A stretch of DNA of 64,000 nucleotides. It comes from Halobacteriales archaeon QH_7_65_31 (GTDB lineage Archaea > Halobacteriota > Halobacteria > Halobacteriales > Haloarculaceae). The translations under genes and the position numbers were made by a program. Shown piece after piece: positions 51,057-60,073 of this stretch; the first letter of the stretch is position 1, and every line of letters starts with the position of its first letter. The notes beneath the pieces were generated by a model, which was not told where the DNA came from, made no database searches, and saw only the letters and a list, made by a program, of their open reading frames with translations. The stretch covers positions 398,407 to 462,406 of the forward strand of contig PXQU01000016.1 of the NCBI GenBank assembly GCA_003021785.1, written 5' to 3'.

Positions 51057-52274
51057 TCAGTCGCGCGAGTCGAGCCGGTCGCGGACGAGTCGCTCGAAGT
51101 CGTCGCGCAGCTCGTCGACCGCGATCTCTTCGAGGACGGGCACGTAAAAGCCCTCGACGAGCATGTTCTTCGCGGTGCGCTCAGGTATGGCACGCGAACC
51201 CATGTAGAACATATCGGACTCGTCGACCTGTCCGACCGTCGCTGAGTGAGACGCCTCGGTGTCGTGGTTGTTGATGATGAGCTTCGGGGAGGCGTCGGCC
51301 TCGCTCTCGTCGCTCAACATCAGCGTGTTCTCGCGCTGGTACGAAGACGTGTTCCAAGCGTCGCGACCGACATCCTGAACGCCCTCGTAGACCGAGCGCG
51401 ACTCGTCGTCGATGACGCCACGCGTCACGAGATCGGCGGTCGTGTTCTCGTTGCGATGCCAGACGCGGGCGTCGATGTCGAAGTGCTGGTCCTCGTGACC
51501 GTAGAACGCCCCGACGATCTTCGTCTCCGAGCCGTCGCCTCTCAGGTGCGTCTCGACGCTCGACTTCGAGAGCCGCGAGCCGGCGTTACAGTCGATGAAG
51601 TCCACCTGTCCGTAGGTGTCGGCGACGCCCTCCTTCAGCTGGTAGTTGTACGTCGTCTGGTCGAGATTCTGAAGCGAGCCGTACTGGACGTACGCGTTCT
51701 CGCCCGCCGCGACCTCGACGAGACCGCTGTAGTACCGGTCACCGTCGACATCCTCGCCCGTCTCCTGTCGCTCTAAGAGCCTCACCGACGACGACTCCTC
51801 CGCGACGACGAGCGTGTAGTTGAACAGCGACCGCGAGTTCATCGTCGTGCGGACCTTCACGTCCTCCGCGTCGACTCGCTCCGGAACGTACACGACGGTC
51901 CCCGTCGAGAACAGCGCGGTCGAGAGCGCCGTCAGGTAGTTCGTCTGCGGGTCGATCACCGAGCCGAACCGCTCTCTGATCAGCGCCTCGTGTTCGTCGA
52001 CCGCCTCGGTAAACGAGAGCACCTCGACGCCGTCGGGGCCGACCTGATCCTTCTCCTCGGCCGCACCGAGCGGATCGACCAGCGAATCGTAGTCGAGATC
52101 CGCGAGATCGGTCCACAGTCGTCCGGGCGTCTGGATCACGTCCGGGAAGTCGAGATCCTCCAGCGCGTCGAGCGCATCGAGCCGCGTCTCCAGCAGCCAC
52201 TCCGGCTCGCCCAGCTCCTCGGAGAGCTGGCGAACCGTCGACTCGTCGACGGAAGCGTGTACCTGCGTGCTCAT
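51057..52274 (-). CDS. sufD: Fe-S cluster assembly protein SufD
   Basis: 405 residues of the SufB/D beta-helix family. It partners SufB on the SufBC2D scaffold. It has the typical D-A-R-V-W-H-R-N-E-N-T strand and C-terminal S-D-M-F-Y-M-G-S-R-A-I-P. The ATG overlaps the sufB stop (ATGA). The acidic N-terminal helical domain L-S-E-E-L-G-E-P-E-W-L-L-E-T-R matches the one in SufB, showing their common origin. Confidence 0.94.
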   Translation of the reverse strand: MSTQVHASVDESTVRQLSEELGEPEWLLETRLDALDALEDLDFPDVIQTPGRLWTDLADLDYDSLVDPLGAAEEKDQVGPDGVEVLSFTEAVDEHEALIRERFGSVIDPQTNYLTALSTALFSTGTVVYVPERVDAEDVKVRTTMNSRSLFNYTLVVAEESSSVRLLERQETGEDVDGDRYYSGLVEVAAGENAYVQYGSLQNLDQTTYNYQLKEGVADTYGQVDFIDCNAGSRLSKSSVETHLRGDGSETKIVGAFYGHEDQHFDIDARVWHRNENTTADLVTRGVIDDESRSVYEGVQDVGRDAWNTSSYQRENTLMLSDESEADASPKLIINNHDTEASHSATVGQVDESDMFYMGSRAIPERTAKNMLVEGFYVPVLEEIAVDELRDDFERLVRDRLDSRD

Positions 52275-53701
52275 CCGAGCGATCCCTCCATCTCCAGTTC
52301 GATGAGTCGGTTCAGCTCGACGGCGTACTCGATCGGTAGCTCCTCCGTGATCGGCTCGATGAAGCCGGCGACGATCATCTGCTTGGCGTCGTCGTCGTCC
52401 AGCCCGCGCGACTGGAGGTAGAACACGTCCTCGTCGCCGATCTTGCCGACGGTCGCCTCGTGGGCCACGTCCACCTTCGACTCCTGTATCTCCATATACG
52501 GCATCGTGTCGGAGGTAGACTCGTTGTCGAACATCAGCGCGTCACACTCGACCGAGGTGGAGGAGTTCTCCGCCCCGTCCGCGATGTGGACGAGTCCGCG
52601 GTAGTTCGTCCGACCGCCGTCCTTCGAGATGGACTTGGACTCGATGGTCGACTTCGTGTTCGGCGCGTTGTGGTACACCTTCGCGCCGGTGTCGATGTTC
52701 TGATTCTCACCCGCGAAGGCGATGGTGATGTGGTTGTCGGTCGCGCCCGGTCCCTTCAGCACCGAGGAGGGGTACAGCATCGTCGCCTTCGACCCCATGG
52801 AGCCGGAGACCCACTCCATCGTGCCGTCCTTCTCGACGATGGCGCGCTTGGTGTTGAGGTTGTAGGTGTTCTTCGACCAGTTCTGCACCGTCGAGTACTG
52901 GACGTGTGCCCCCTCACCGACGAACACCTCGACGCCGCCCGAGTGGAGATTGAACTCGGAGTACTTCGGAGCCGAACAGCCCTCGATGTAGTGGACCTCG
53001 GAGTTCTCCTCGGCGACGATGAGCGTGTGCTCGAACTGCCCCATCCCGTCGCTGTTCATCCGGAAGTACGCCTGCACCGGCATCTGGACCGTCACGTTCT
53101 CCGGGACGTAGACGAACGAGCCGCCCGACCAGATCGCACCGTGGAGCGCGGCGAACTTGTTGTCGCTGGCGGGAACGTTCTTCGTCATGAAGTGTTCCTT
53201 GAGGATCTCTTCGTGCTCCTGGACCGCCTGGTCCATGTCACAGAAGATGACGCCCTTCTCCTCCCACTGCTCCTGCATATTCTGGTAGACGATCTCCGAC
53301 TCGTACTGCGCGCCGACGCCCGAGAGGGCGTTCTTCTCGGCCTCCGGGATGCCGAGCTTGTCGAAGGTGTCCTGAATCTCGTCCGGGAGGTCCTCCCAGT
53401 TCTCCGCGCCGCCGCGGGTCTCGATGTCCGGTCGGATGTACGGGACGATCTCGTCCACGTCGACCTCCGAGAGGTCGGGCGCGCCCGGCCAGTCGTCCGG
53501 CATGGGCATCTGTCGGAACTGCTTGAGCGCGCGAAGCCGGCGCTCCAGCATCCACTCCGGCTCGTCTTTGTCCTCCGAGATGACGCGAATCGTCTCCTCG
53601 GTCAGCCCCTTCTCCGCCTCGAACGCCGACGACTCCTCCTTCTTGAACTCGAAGCGGGCCTCGGTCTCGGTCTCCTTGAGATGGTCTTGATCTGAACTCA
53701 T
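52271..53701 (-). CDS. sufB: Fe-S cluster assembly protein SufB
   Basis: 476 residues, standard. SufB is the main scaffold subunit that assembles Fe-S clusters. Visible hallmarks are E-D-K-D-E-P-E-W-M-L-E-R-R-L, Y-V-P-E-N-V-T-V, I-E-G-C-S-A-P-K-Y with a conserved Cys, and A-T-V-G-K-I-G-D-E-D-V-F-Y-L near the end. It is the second gene of sufC-sufB-sufD, 32 bp after sufC. Confidence 0.97.
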   Translation of the reverse strand: MSSDQDHLKETETEARFEFKKEESSAFEAEKGLTEETIRVISEDKDEPEWMLERRLRALKQFRQMPMPDDWPGAPDLSEVDVDEIVPYIRPDIETRGGAENWEDLPDEIQDTFDKLGIPEAEKNALSGVGAQYESEIVYQNMQEQWEEKGVIFCDMDQAVQEHEEILKEHFMTKNVPASDNKFAALHGAIWSGGSFVYVPENVTVQMPVQAYFRMNSDGMGQFEHTLIVAEENSEVHYIEGCSAPKYSEFNLHSGGVEVFVGEGAHVQYSTVQNWSKNTYNLNTKRAIVEKDGTMEWVSGSMGSKATMLYPSSVLKGPGATDNHITIAFAGENQNIDTGAKVYHNAPNTKSTIESKSISKDGGRTNYRGLVHIADGAENSSTSVECDALMFDNESTSDTMPYMEIQESKVDVAHEATVGKIGDEDVFYLQSRGLDDDDAKQMIVAGFIEPITEELPIEYAVELNRLIELEMEGSLG

Positions 53702-53733
53702 GATGTTGTGTTAGTGTTGGTTGCGTTTGTCTG

Positions 53734-54651
53734 TTAGGCCGTCTCGTACACGTCCTCTCGGACCCAGTCGTACCCCTTCTCCTCCAGCTGCTTCGCGAGG
53801 TCGGCGTCGCCCTCCTTCACGATCTCGCCGTCGAGCATGATGTGAACGTAGTCCGGCTCGACGTAGTCGAGAATGCGCTGGTAGTGGGTAATCTGCAGCA
53901 CGCCCGTGCCGACCTCCTCGCGCAGGGCGTTGATCCCGTTCGCCACGTCCTGCAGGCGGTCGATATCCAGCCCCGAGTCGATCTCGTCGAGCACGGCGAC
54001 GGACGGTTCGAGAATTGCGGCCTGAAGCACCTCGTTCTGCTTCTTCTCGCCGCCGGAGAAGCCGGCGTTGAGATACCGCTGTGCGAACTTCTCGTCCATG
54101 TCGAGCAGCTCCATCTTCTCCTGAAGGAGCTGCTGGAACTCGGCGACACCGACCTCCCCCTCGTCCACGTCGCCCTCCATCGGCGACGTGTCGTAGCCGG
54201 CGTCGTCTTCTTCTTCGGCGTCCGCTTCGCCCTCGTCGTCCTCGAACAGCTCCTCACGCTCTTCGAGCTTGGCGTTGAGCGCCGTCCGGAGGAAGTTCAC
54301 CATCGTCACGCCCTCGATCTCGGCGGGATACTGGAAGGCGAGGAAGATACCGAGCGCCGCGCGCTCGTTCGGTTCGAGATCGAGCAGATCCCACGTCAGG
54401 TCGTCGTCGATCTCGACGCCGTCGGTCTCGAACTCGTCCTTGTCGAGGTGAAGCAGCACCTCGCCGTCGGTGACCTCGTACGACGGGTGACCGGCGATGA
54501 TCTTCGCCGTGGTGGACTTTCCGGAGCCGTTCGGTCCCATGAGCGCGTGGATCTCGCCCGACGATACTTCCAAGTCGACGCCGCGGAGGATGGTCTCGCC
54601 ACCGTCCTCGGCTACCTCTGCGTGAAGGTTGTTGAGTTCGAGTGTTGCCAT
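53734..54651 (-). CDS. sufC: Fe-S cluster assembly ATPase SufC
   Basis: 305 residues, longer than the ~250 usual because of an acidic insertion (about residues 130-165, Glu/Asp-rich) typical of haloarchaeal SufC. Walker [13 protein letters not shown] signature F-S-G-G-E-K-K, and Walker B V-A-V-L-D-E-I-D are intact. It powers the SufBCD scaffold. The ATG at 54651 gives the normal N-terminus (M-A-T-L-E-L-N-N-L); upstream codons overlap polB. TATA-like CATTAACC lies near 54687-54694. Confidence 0.96.
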
Positions 54652-54711
54652 TGATAGAACAGTAGTAACGAGGGGCGAGACGCGGTTAATGTTTACGGGT
54701 CTTCCCGACGA

Positions 54712-54729
54712 CTTTTCGAGTTCGAAAAG
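54712..54729. promoter_or_regulatory. 18-bp palindrome upstream of sufC
   Basis: CTTTTCGA-GT-TCGAAAAG: two perfect 8-bp half sites around a 2-bp centre. It lies upstream of the sufC TATA-like element and 26 bp downstream of the polB stop. It could be an operator for a dimeric Fe-S or redox regulator, or part of a polB terminator. Confidence 0.5.
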
Positions 54730-54754
54730 CTGAGTTTGCGGTTCTAAAATATCA

Positions 54755-57700
54755 TCACATGAAGCTGCCGAGTCCAGTTTGCTCTTGACCATCTCGAACC
54801 TCCTCCCACGAAACGTCGAGCGCCTCTAACACCCGCTCGATCGGGCCGCGAAGCGTCTTCTCTAACATCTTGTCCCAGTCCACCTCGAACTCCTCCGGGA
54901 CCTCGTCGGCGTACTCGAAACAGATCACGTCCGGATCGCGCTTGAACTCCCCGTACAACGGGTCGCGTTGTGGATCCAGTCCGAGCTCTTCCTCTGCGTA
55001 CGTCCAGAAGTCCGGATGCACCTTCTCCAGATACAGGCGTTTCGGCTTCGATCCGCGCTGGAAGTTCGTCCCGAGCAGGAGATTCGCGTACTTCGCGCCG
55101 CGCACCTGCGCGGTGTCCGTATCGTACGAGTCGAGCTTCTTTCCGATCCCACCCGGGATACCGATGTCGTCGAGCGGTCGCTCGCCCGTCTGGAACGCCT
55201 CGATCGTGTCGTGAACGTACTCCTTGACCCCTGCCACGTCGCCCTCGGTGACGATCATATCTAGGACGCGCTTTTGTACCTCCTTCGTGACCGGCGCGAT
55301 GTCCGATCGCTTGTACTCGAACCCGGTGATGTCGATGTCGTCGACGTCTTTTCCTTCCTTCCAGATGATGTTCCCGGCGTAGCGTTTCTTCGTGCCGGCC
55401 TGGAAGAAGCGCCGATACAGCTTCTCGAACTCGATCTGGAAGCGGTGGCTCTCGGCGTTTAGCTCCGTGCGGGCGAACTCGTCGTACGAGGCGTTGATGT
55501 GCTCCTCGATCTCGAAGGAGGTGTCGACGGCCTGCTCCTTCGGGTACTCTTCTCCCAACTCTAACATGACAGAGTCCGTGTTGTGGAGGACGATGCCACC
55601 GACTCCATCCACGAAGTTCTCGTTATCGGCGACGCTCAGGTCGTAGACGTACCCGTCGTGCTCGGTCTCAGTCACGACTGGATCGCGACCAGACCGGTAG
55701 TAGTCGCACGTGCGAATCGTGTACGACTGCTTACTGTCGCGGTACTTCAGTGAGTGTTTCTCGCCGCGCTGGGTGAGCAGCGTCGAGAGGCCCGCCGCGA
55801 GCTCCCGACTCGTCGTTTCGAAATCGAAGTTCCGCTCGGCGTACTCCGTCGAGTATCGCGGGAACTCCCGGGACCCGTCACCCTCGATGAGTACATCGAG
55901 AAACAGCGACTGGCGTTCCCGCGGAAGGTGATACACGAACGAGGGAATTCGTTTTTTGCGAGAGGTCTGACCGGCGAACTCACGGAAGAACACGGCCGTG
56001 AGTTCGTTCATCATCTGTAGCTTCTGGGTCGCATCGTCGTAGCTGACTTCCCGTGTCCCGTCTGCGGTTTCGTATTCGACCGTTCGCTCGGGCCTCGTAT
56101 CACTCGCGGTGATGCTTGCCGTTGCATACTCGAACAGCCGGTCGTAGTCGGTCCGTAACCTGTCGAGCCAGTCGCGGCGCGACTCGGCGATGCTCGCACC
56201 GAACTTCGACTCCGTCGTCTCGATAGTCGACGCGCTCCCTTCCGTGACGTACGCGGCCAGTAGCCGGAGTAGAGCGGCCCCGTCCTCGCTGTCGATGTCG
56301 ATGTATCGTTTGACCTTGACAGTCGAATCGAGTTCGCCGTGATGTTCGTGTCCGAACCAGACGTGGTCCTCGTCCGCACACACGCGCTTCGTCTTCTCGG
56401 TTGCGTGTTCGCTACCCACCATTCGACCGTCTTCGTACGTCCGGGTGTATCCCTTCAGTACGTCGAACACGTCGATCCGTTCGATCGACTTTACGTCTGG
56501 CAGGTCGGGAACTCGAAGCGGCTCGGAGACGTCTTCTGGCTCGGTCTCGACGAGGGTCGCTCCGTCTTCGACGACGTACGAGTGGTCACGAGTCGTCGTC
56601 GACTCTCCGAACTTGTGTTGGAGTGTTACGACTTCTTTGTCCGTTCGGTGGCGGACGATCTCTTCGATGGGTTTCCACTCGGACTCGCCGTCCGCACTCA
56701 CTGAGAGGGCGTCCCACCCGTCGAGTTCGCCGCGCTCTTTTCCAGCGCCGACTGCTCGCTCCGCTCCGCCGTCGGCTGTGATCAGGATTTCACCGTCCGC
56801 TCTCGGCGTCGAACGCTCGAATAGCGCCTCGATCGGGATGATCCGGACGGTTCCCCGCGGATCTCTAACGACGACCGGTCGGTCACCTGTGACACTGTCA
56901 CCGTATGCCACCTCGTGACCGATCTCGTTGGCCGACTGCTCGGTGAACTCTATGACCCGACGCCCTGTCGCTGTTACTGCGGCTCCCATCTCCTTATCGT
57001 ACAGCCGGAATCGGTCCCATCCCAAAACGCCGTAGAGAGACTGACCGACGAACTGGAACGTCCCGTTTCGCCCGGCGAGTAGCGTATGATTATCCGCGAC
57101 GGTGACACAGTACGCACCGTCGGTCGCCGTGCTCCGATCGCCAGAACGGTGCATTCGGACGCTGTTCTTCCCGCCCTCCGTACAGTAAATTCGCCAGGAA
57201 CCGCTGTTGTGGCCGTAGTTAACGGTGAGACCGAGATGCGTGCAGAGCCGGAGCACGTCGTCCCGGAGTTCCTCACTTGAGGTGGTGTATCGCCAGCTGT
57301 TCGGCTGTCGATCCCCGTCGCCGGCGACGAGCGTGTCGAGGAACTGCTGTTTCTGCTCGCGACAGAGTCCGAAGACGAACTCGGGAATCTGTTTCTCGAA
57401 GCTGTCTCCGCCGGCGACGGTCTCCAGCCACCGACCGAGTAGCCGCGAGGTGAACTGATACCCGTTCTGGTCGACGTAGTAGTCGAGACCGAGCCGATCG
57501 AGCAGCTCACCGATACGCGTGTGATCGTCGTGGTCGGTCTCGATTGCGGCTCCACCGTCGGTGAGTGCGTCCTGTGCGAGGCTCACCGTCGTTGCCGAGC
57601 CACGGAGCTGCTCGCCGAACTGCTTCTCCTCGGACGTGTACACTGATCCCTCGGTGATATACCACGCAAGCAGATCGAGGAAGTCGTCGCCGTCGTAAAA

Positions 57701-60073
57701 CCGGGGAATCCACTTCCGACCCCGCTCGGCGTGGACGTAGAACGCAGAGCAGTGCGCATCGAGATACTCGCGGTGCTGCTCGTACTCCTCGGCGGAGAAC
57801 ACGTAACCGGTCTCGTCGATCTCGTCTTTCAGGATCTTGTCCGGGTAGTAGCCCACCTCGCTCGCGAGCGTGTGACCGTGAACGTCGTTATCCACCCACA
57901 CCTCGTACTCACCGTCGAGTCGTTCGGTCAGATCGACGGTTTCGAGCCTGTCACCGTCTGGTCCTGCCCAGTCGTGTGGAAGCTCGTAATGTGAACTGTC
58001 GTTCAGGTCGCCAGCCTCAACGAACTGGAACTCGTCCCACGACGCGCCGTTCTTGTCGTCCTTCCGAACGAGCATCCGGTGGTTCGGCGTGACGCTGAAG
58101 TCGATCTTGTTCGTCTCGATATCGACCATCTCGCCGCGGTAGTCAGGGTACTCGTGTGTGTCGGTGACCGGCTTCACCTCCATCCCCATCGTCTCGGGGT
58201 CGAGCGAGTACACCTCATCGCCCACGTCCAGGTCTCTGATATTTCGAATCCCGCCCGGCGTGAGCACGTCTGTATCTGCCGAAAAGCAGTTCATGATGAC
58301 CTTGACAGCTGCCTGCTGGCTGTCGTAGCGCTCGTACTCCGTCTCGTCGGGATCGTGTCGGTCGCGGGCCGCCTTCTTGTTCTCGCGTTCCGTCAGCAGC
58401 TCGTCGACCATCTCCCGGATGATGCCGTCCGGCTCCTTCCGGAAGTGGGTCCCATTGGGAGCCCGATACGTCTCTCCGTCGTACTCGTCGAGATCGACCT
58501 TCGTCTCGGGGCTCGCGTTCGTGGTAACCATGCACATGGGGTAGAGACTTTTCAAATCAAGAACAGTTACGTTCTCTCGAATCCCTGAGACCGGATCGAA
58601 GACGGCCCCGCCTTCGTAGTCCTCTGACGCGACGGTTCCCTTCGACGGGAGCGCGTAGTCGCCGTGGACCTTATGCAGGATATACAGGTCGACCGCGTCG
58701 CCGGGCGTCGTCGCGTCTTCGAGCTTACAGCCGACGAACGTCGCGACCTCGCTCCAGAAGGAGATGAGATCGACCTTCCGGTCGATTTCGACACACAGCT
58801 CTACGTCGCGGAGATTGTACTCGAGCAGCTGGGCGGGGTCCTGTTCCCAGAGATCGCCGATATCCCCGGTGTAGCGTTCCTTCCCGACGCCGAGTTCCTG
58901 TTCGGCAACGGCGTCCAGCCGGTAGGAGTCGAGCTCGGAGTACTGCCGGCGTTCGTAGGCGTACAGCAGATCGAAGACGACTCGTCCCTTGATGTTCGGC
59001 CCGCCCCAGCCGGAGTCCCACACCTCGTCGACGCGGGAGAGTCGGTCGGATTCGAGTCCGAGCTCCGCCAGTCTGGCGACGTAGTACGGGGCGTCGAAGT
59101 CGTCGAAGTTCCACCCCGTCAGCACGTCAGGGTCCGTCTCGTCGAGGTAATCGAGGTAGTCCTCGTGCATCGCCGTCTCGGTGTCGAACACCCGGAGATC
59201 GATGTCGCTCTCGCCGTCGAAAAAGTCGAAGGTGAGCTCCTCGGGCGCTGGCACTTCGGCATCGGGGGCGTCGTAGAGCCAGACGACGTACTCACCGCGG
59301 TAGGAGTCGTGGCTCGTCATACAGATGATCTTCTCCTCGCCGTCTTCCGGGAACCCCGAGCGGTCGTCCACCTCGATATCGAAGGTGTGAACGCGGGGAT
59401 CGACGCTCAGGTCGATCGGCTCGATCTGCTCGTGGTGGATCTTGATGCTCCCGTCTTCGGCACGCTGCTCGGGCACGCGGATCCCGGCGGTGATGTCTTT
59501 GTCGATGAGGAGCCGGTTCGGAAAGAGGATATCCGCCTCGTAGTGGTCGAACCGGTCGCGCAGCTGTCCGACGTCACGGGGGGTCTGCCCGAACACCTTG
59601 ACCAGATCGTCACCGCGGATCGACTGGTAGATGACGACCTCGTCGGCCTCCGGCTCATCGAGCGTCGGGTCGCGCTGGCCTTTCGTCTCGACGCCGGCGA
59701 TCCGCTCCTCCATCAGGCGATCGTCCTCGAAATCTGCCTCGCGGAGCTGGCGGTCCTGATCGGGGCTCTCGTGGTCCAGCTCGTCGACTGGGGTGTAGAA
59801 GTACGGCTGGAAGTCGAAGATCCGGATGTGCTCCCTCTCCTCGTCCGCCGTTCGTCCGAAGACGTGGAGTACGGGGTACTCCTCGTCGCCGTACCCCTCG
59901 ACGGTGTAATCGACCTGTGTGACGCTCACCTCGACGACGCCGTCGGCGTCGGGAAACTGATACTCCGAGAGATCGATCAGCTCGCCGACCTCGTCGCCCT
60001 CGGTGACGTGGCGGGCCTCCTCGACCTCCTCGCCGCCACCGAAGTCTGCGAGGGTCGTGCCGGTAGAACTCAT
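54755..60073 (-). CDS. polB: B-family replicative DNA polymerase with two inteins
   Basis: 1772-residue precursor; removing both inteins leaves about 917 residues, normal for haloarchaeal PolB. Exonuclease motifs are [14 protein letters not shown] and Y-N-L-R-D-V; polymerase motifs are D-L-K-S-L-Y-P (A), K-V-I-M-N/S-L-Y-G (B, split by intein 1) and Y-G-D/T-D-S (C, split by intein 2). The C-terminus G-L-G-S-F-M resembles a PCNA-binding peptide. ATG at 60073 ([11 protein letters not shown]) is chosen; the upstream open frame to 60271 is not coding-like and overlaps the divergent gene. It is the probable main replicase or one of two with PolD. Confidence 0.97.
55580..56896 (-). other. Intein 2 in PolB motif C (439 residues), with DOD endonuclease
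   Basis: Inserted between Y-G-D and T-D-S of the catalytic motif. It begins with Ser ([10 protein letters not shown]), has block B T-R-D-H-S, and ends with canonical L-H-N before Thr. Endonuclease motifs are L-L-A-A-Y-V-T-E-G and [11 protein letters not shown]. Only 48 extein residues separate it from intein 1. Confidence 0.94.
57041..58288 (-). other. Intein 1 in PolB motif B (416 residues), with DOD endonuclease
   Basis: It begins with Cys ([13 protein letters not shown]) directly after K-V-I-M-N and ends at F-V-G-Q before Ser of S-L-Y-G. Splicing block B has T-P-N-H. LAGLIDADG-type motifs appear as L-L-A-W-Y-I-T-E-G and [11 protein letters not shown], both keeping acidic residues, so the endonuclease may be active. 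The intein terminates in Gly-Gln rather than the canonical His-Asn. Confidence 0.93.

Follow-up and report, generated by a model that had tools for sequence, protein, structure and literature searches.

The window analyzed here, a 64,000-nucleotide stretch from the haloarchaeon Halobacteriales archaeon QH_7_65_31, contains a polB gene whose product, a family-B DNA polymerase (PolB), is interrupted by two inteins. The gene occupies positions 54755..60073 of the minus strand, with an ATG (MSSTGTT) at 60073 and a stop at 54755, and encodes a precursor of 1,772 amino acids with family-B polymerase and exonuclease Pfam domains. The Pfam families Intein_splicing, Hint, and LAGLIDADG_3 were also found within the precursor, the polymerase domains flanking them on both sides, and NCBIfam models placed an intein N terminus (TIGR01445) in the first intein and an intein C terminus (TIGR01443) in the second. 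All parts of the gene lie on the minus strand. An N-extein of 595 amino acids (58289..60073, last residues KVIMN) is followed by intein 1 (57041..58288), which has 416 amino acids running from Cys1 to Gly415-Gln416 with Ser at the +1 position. An extein linker of exactly 48 codons (56897..57040, SLYG to AYGD) leads to intein 2 (55580..56896), with 439 amino acids from Ser1 to His-Asn439 and Thr at +1, and a C-extein of 274 amino acids (54755..55579, first residues TDSV) completes the precursor. Without both inteins, PolB is a 917-amino-acid family-B DNA polymerase. The inteins, at G+C contents of 0.607 and 0.606, are nearly equal in composition to the exteins (0.618).

The intein junctions are fixed by an empty-site comparison, since the flanks joined after removal of each intein match the uninterrupted PolB of relatives. 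The same comparison ruled out alternative boundaries that would have given intein 1 a canonical His-Asn end. An initial annotation of this DNA, covering both inteins and the linker (55580-58288), had placed the two inteins inside catalytic motifs with 48 extein residues between them, and translation and coordinate mapping bore this out. Intein 2 sits at YGD/TDS, the polB-c site, and its Ser1, His-Asn end, and Thr+1 all agree with membership in that allele. Intein 1 sits in the KxxxN/SLYG motif (KVIMN/SLYG), and the letter b for this site was inferred from the order of the sites, pol-c being YGD/TDS (PMC549080). Its junctions are identical to those of the polB-b allele, and in the tree described below it is nested among the long-form members.

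Both inteins carry splicing and endonuclease motifs. In intein 1, block B (58070..58096) holds the Thr and His of the TxxH motif as TPNH, invariant in the family alignment; the two LAGLIDADG motifs lie at 57647..57679 (containing WYITEG) and 57311..57340 (containing AGDGD); block F (57071..57115) has Cys at F:4 and His at F:13 (YCVTVADNH); and block G (57041..57070) carries the Gly-Gln terminus (FVGQ/SLYG). In intein 2, the corresponding features are block B at 56573..56602 (TTRDH), LAGLIDADG motifs at 56237..56272 (containing AYVTEG) and 55874..55903 (containing EGDGS), and blocks F and G at 55580..55651, with Asp at F:4, Glu at F:13, and the canonical His-Asn (VLHN/TDS). The paired LAGLIDADG motifs that had been reported for both inteins are present, and each motif retains its acidic residue. 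An AlphaFold model of intein 1 (mean predicted local distance difference test score, 79.8) had its best match among solved structures with PI-PkoII, an archaeal intein endonuclease (E value, 3.6e-18); the model also matched VMA inteins, and its endonuclease part matched I-DmoI.

The initial annotation had read intein 1 correctly as ending in Gly-Gln with no penultimate His, and the Gly415-Gln416 end supports its conclusion that the C-terminal step must use Gln, or at least something other than Asn. It had also assigned this terminus to a rare noncanonical class, and that description does not hold. The terminus was surveyed in 392 evenly drawn haloarchaeal species, plus named GTDB genomes, with counts referring to distinct sequences and not to independent events. 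Full-length relatives of intein 1 occupy the same site in more than 100 of the 392 species. Among 130 distinct site-b inteins, 116 end in Gly-Gln, 9 in Gly-Asn, 4 in Ser-Asn, and 1 in Ser-Gln, so that the last residue is Gln in 117, and a penultimate His was found in none of the 130. Gly-Gln is thus the inherited rule at this site and equally at site a (DLK/SLYP), where 31 of 31 inteins end this way while sharing 33 to 36% identity with intein 1 in the aligned rows. The orthologue comparison that the annotation had proposed therefore came out in favor of inheritance, and orthologues ending in His-Asn, which would have spoken against it, are ruled out at site b. All 130 site-b inteins have a Ser codon at +1, and all begin with Cys1, although most of these rows came from a search pattern requiring Cys, the tblastn matches being free of that requirement. 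At the polB-c site, 43 of 43 distinct inteins, collected without requiring any particular ending, end in His-Asn.

Codon usage at the terminus indicates that the two residues are maintained. At site b, the Gly at G:6 is encoded by GGC (41), GGG (37), GGT (33), and GGA (14), and the Gln at G:7 by CAG (78) and CAA (39). Because all four Gly codons and both Gln codons are used, the residues are held by purifying selection and not just by recent copying, and a terminus under such selection should be one that works. On these grounds, the Gly-Gln terminus of intein 1 is almost certainly functional. In a tree made after leaving out the trait columns, Gly-Gln is the ending of every intein in the site-a outgroup and in the branches of site b that split off early; the last residue switches on three occasions, always between Gln and Asn. 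Gly-Gln is thus ancestral on the tree of haloarchaeal PolB inteins. The persistence of Gln may in part reflect the genetic code, in which Gln and Asn codons are two base changes apart, with Lys or His codons in between. More distant inteins of MCM and NAD synthase, from nonhaloarchaeal members of the phylum, end in Cys-Gly-Asn, and the absence of the penultimate His accordingly marks a wide intein lineage. The simplest history is an old and widespread loss of the penultimate His, with Gln as the state of the haloarchaeal PolB lineage and Asn regained a few times, the deeper history not being formally rooted. We found no published remark on Gly-Gln in haloarchaeal PolB inteins in the open PMC literature, a search that left out most subscription journals, so that this absence proves little.

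Several observations concern variation around this terminus. Short site-b forms of 353 to 364 amino acids lack part of the insert and terminate in Gly-Asn or Ser-Asn; in those of Haloquadratum the acidic residues of the LAGLIDADG motifs are gone as well, so that the short forms look like stages of decay. We also considered whether terminal Asn goes together with absence of the block F His and set the idea aside: 11 of 13 Asn-ended members lack the His compared with 8 of 117 Gln-ended members, but once the tree is taken into account there are just three independent comparisons, and a sign test was not significant. Elsewhere in the source genome, the intein of topoisomerase VI subunit B (contig C15, about 24-28 kb) ends in Lys-Asn, also without a penultimate His.

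With respect to splicing class, intein 1 has Cys1, the block B TxxH motif, and Ser at +1, as class 1 inteins do, and the presence of Cys1 excludes a class 2 or class 3 mechanism. Two typical class 1 residues are replaced, the C-terminal Asn by Gln416 and the penultimate His by Gly415. In published work, Gln, Asp, and Glu at the C terminus are treated as variants of the typical Asn, the penultimate His is replaced by another residue in about 5% of functional inteins, and Gln-ended inteins that splice include those of Pyrococcus abyssi PolII, Methanoculleus marisnigri PolII, and the Chilo iridescent virus (CIV) ribonucleotide reductase (PMC4031507). Gln416 is a variant residue and no bar to class 1 as that source describes the class. 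In the proposed route, Cys1 of intein 1 would undergo an acyl shift aided by the block B Thr and His, the chain would be transferred to Ser+1, Gln416 would cyclize to an aminoglutarimide (where Asn would give a succinimide) and so resolve the branch, and an O-N shift would follow; in this member, the Gln step is probably aided by the block F His. Intein 2 would splice by the standard Ser1, His-Asn, and Thr+1 chemistry. We consider it very likely that this single PolB harbors two independent mobile inteins, at polB-b and polB-c, the first belonging to the Gly-Gln lineage and following the class 1 route with Gln cyclization and the second following the standard route. Boundaries, splice residues, inheritance, purifying selection, and intact endonuclease motifs are established at the level of sequence, whereas splicing of both inteins, the chemistry of the Gln step, and cutting by both endonucleases are what we infer.

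Some findings weigh against this reading. Eight distinct Gln-ended members also lack the block F His, having Asn instead, so that the helper for the Gln step may be another residue; the wider relatives and 13 site-b members end in Asn, so Gln is replaceable; and, with the genome at 90.6% completeness, a second polB may have been missed. The first of these bears directly on the possibility that the branch of intein 1 is resolved without Gln cyclization, by water attack or with the help of another residue, the conserved Gln then being structural. Other mechanisms are possible for atypical termini (PMC4031507), and some Gln-ended members do lack both helper histidines. We nonetheless regard this as improbable, because Gln has been replaced solely by Asn, the other cyclizing residue, on about three occasions that each took two base changes, a restriction not expected of a structural residue. 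To the idea that intein 1 is a dead insertion, with PolB lost or made by another gene, we give almost no credence. The C-terminal intein model was reported for intein 2 and not for intein 1, but the frame stays open over 1,772 codons with all other splice residues in place, the terminus is common to more than 100 species, and the genome scan found a single PolB, so that a nonsplicing intein would leave no intact polymerase.

Whether the inteins regulate the polymerase is a separate matter. The location of both inteins in catalytic motifs implies that the precursor is inactive, which is a common pattern for inteins, and the initial annotation had proposed a possible control point on this basis. 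A version in which the Gly-Gln end slows splicing or makes it salt dependent, and thereby controls PolB, seems to us unlikely. Two observations would suit such a role: the last step in P. abyssi PolII is slower with its native Gln than with Asn (PMC4031507), and Gly-Gln is under purifying selection. Against it, the CIV ribonucleotide reductase intein is the more efficient splicer when it ends in Gln and not Asn (PMC4031507), about 270 of the 392 species have no intein at site b, and the two-step path to Asn also explains why Gln persists. Removal of the polB intein of Haloferax volcanii left the growth rate unchanged (PMC3024317), and a fitness cost of about 7% has been reported for a polB-c intein (Naor et al., as quoted in PMC10643990), which fits a parasite better than a switch. 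Nothing seen here supports regulation. It would be a long shot to suppose that Gly-Gln has been kept as an adaptation, with the last step slowed or tuned to salt so as to set the timing of polymerase maturation or guard the intein against loss, and with the block F His losses in some members pointing to an undescribed branch resolution.

The two inteins are best explained as homing parasites, each with its own LAGLIDADG homing endonuclease. Of the 392 species, 122 have an intein at polB-b and 59 have one at polB-c, a patchy distribution that is consistent with homing. Both sites are filled in 31 species versus 18 expected (Fisher p = 2e-4, ignoring shared descent), and in two further double-intein genomes (G075 and G200), read directly, the site-b intein also ends in Gly-Gln. 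Haloarchaeal polB is known to have several intein sites, three of them filled in Haloquadratum walsbyi (PMC3024317, PMC10643990). Multi-intein polB has been published before, as have the two alleles, and the present inteins are further instances. The same genome holds at least eight intein-like regions, among them C1 91-92 kb and 179-182 kb, C5 24 kb, and C7 74 kb, and two of its intein-like regions lie in one MCM-like gene, an arrangement studied in PMC10643990. Directly downstream of polB, on the same strand, is a three-gene SufB/SufD/SufC-like iron-sulfur assembly cluster (51057-54792).

A gene homologous to intein 1 over its full length, but free-standing and without exteins, was found in 16 of the 392 haloarchaeal genomes, with about 400-460 codons. 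In the ten examples that were read closely (such as L228:4989-6215 on the minus strand and L233:4860-6164 on the plus strand), Gly stands in place of Cys1, block B no longer has its Thr, and the C terminus reads [FY]QWxGVSxx with Val in place of Gln; the block F His is absent wherever that block was examined. All ten have kept the two LAGLIDADG motifs intact. The free-standing genes would thus be splicing-dead descendants of the Gly-Gln PolB intein family that keep their endonuclease motifs. They form one clade (100/100). Sister to this clade (99/98) is an intein with a Gly-Gln end, located in the PolB encoded on a 136-kb contig that also carries baseplate, RtcB, ribonucleotide reductase, and Cdc6-like genes and that, by this gene content, represents a tailed virus. 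This viral-type intein (G229:C3:42271-43452) is 47% identical to intein 1 and comes from an assembly of the same genus. A search for it in viral contigs and plasmids gave no match, and phage records match intein 1 weakly, in methylase and terminase genes among others. Similar PolBs (33 to 34% identity to that of the 136-kb contig) occur in Halogranum tailed virus 1 and Haloarcula tailed virus 2, and there the same intein site is empty. Beside polB, the former virus has a LAGLIDADG endonuclease gene and the latter a T5orf172-domain gene. In seven of the ten cases, the neighborhood of the free-standing gene includes a TrwB/VirD4-like gene, an NrS-1 polymerase-like gene, or both, and because of these neighbors the free-standing genes appear to be carried by integrated mobile elements. 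The free-standing protein is possibly an element-borne candidate endonuclease used against viral polB, which we offer as a lead only.

Taken as a set, the Gly-Gln inteins of the two PolB sites, with more than 140 distinct sequences, constitute a large natural series in which a change to Asn has occurred about three times and the block F His has been lost about eight times. This series would allow the chemistry of Gln-ended splicing without a penultimate His to be tested on natural variants. The adjacent polB inteins provide a counterpart to the published MCM case, in which neighboring inteins interfere with each other's homing; in polB, co-occurrence is above expectation. The tailed-virus PolB intein, for its part, suggests one way in which inteins might pass between virus and host.

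Among known systems, the closest to intein 1 is the haloarchaeal polB-b allele (38 halobacterial members in PMC4071816), which shares its insertion motif, full-length homology, Gly-Gln end, and LAGLIDADG endonuclease; identity among the long forms is about 63 to 82%, and nothing essential sets intein 1 apart. The Cys-Gly-Asn inteins of MCM and NAD synthase share the penultimate Gly, the lack of His, and detectable homology with intein 1 but differ in their Asn end and in the Cys before Gly. The P. abyssi and Pyrococcus horikoshii PolII mini-inteins (PMC8175363, PMC8229266) likewise have Gln as the last residue, which is cyclized there in step 3, but unlike intein 1 they keep the penultimate His, have Cys at +1, lack an endonuclease, and reside in DNA polymerase II and not PolB. 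The CIV ribonucleotide reductase intein splices with its native C-terminal Gln, and more efficiently than with Asn, as cited in PMC4031507, although its host protein is different. Intein 2 shares with the H. volcanii polB intein (PMC3024317; polB-c in PMC10643990) the YGD/TDS site, Ser1, His-Asn, Thr+1, and LAGLIDADG endonuclease, and the two are close in size, at 439 and 437 amino acids; homing has been demonstrated for the H. volcanii copy only.

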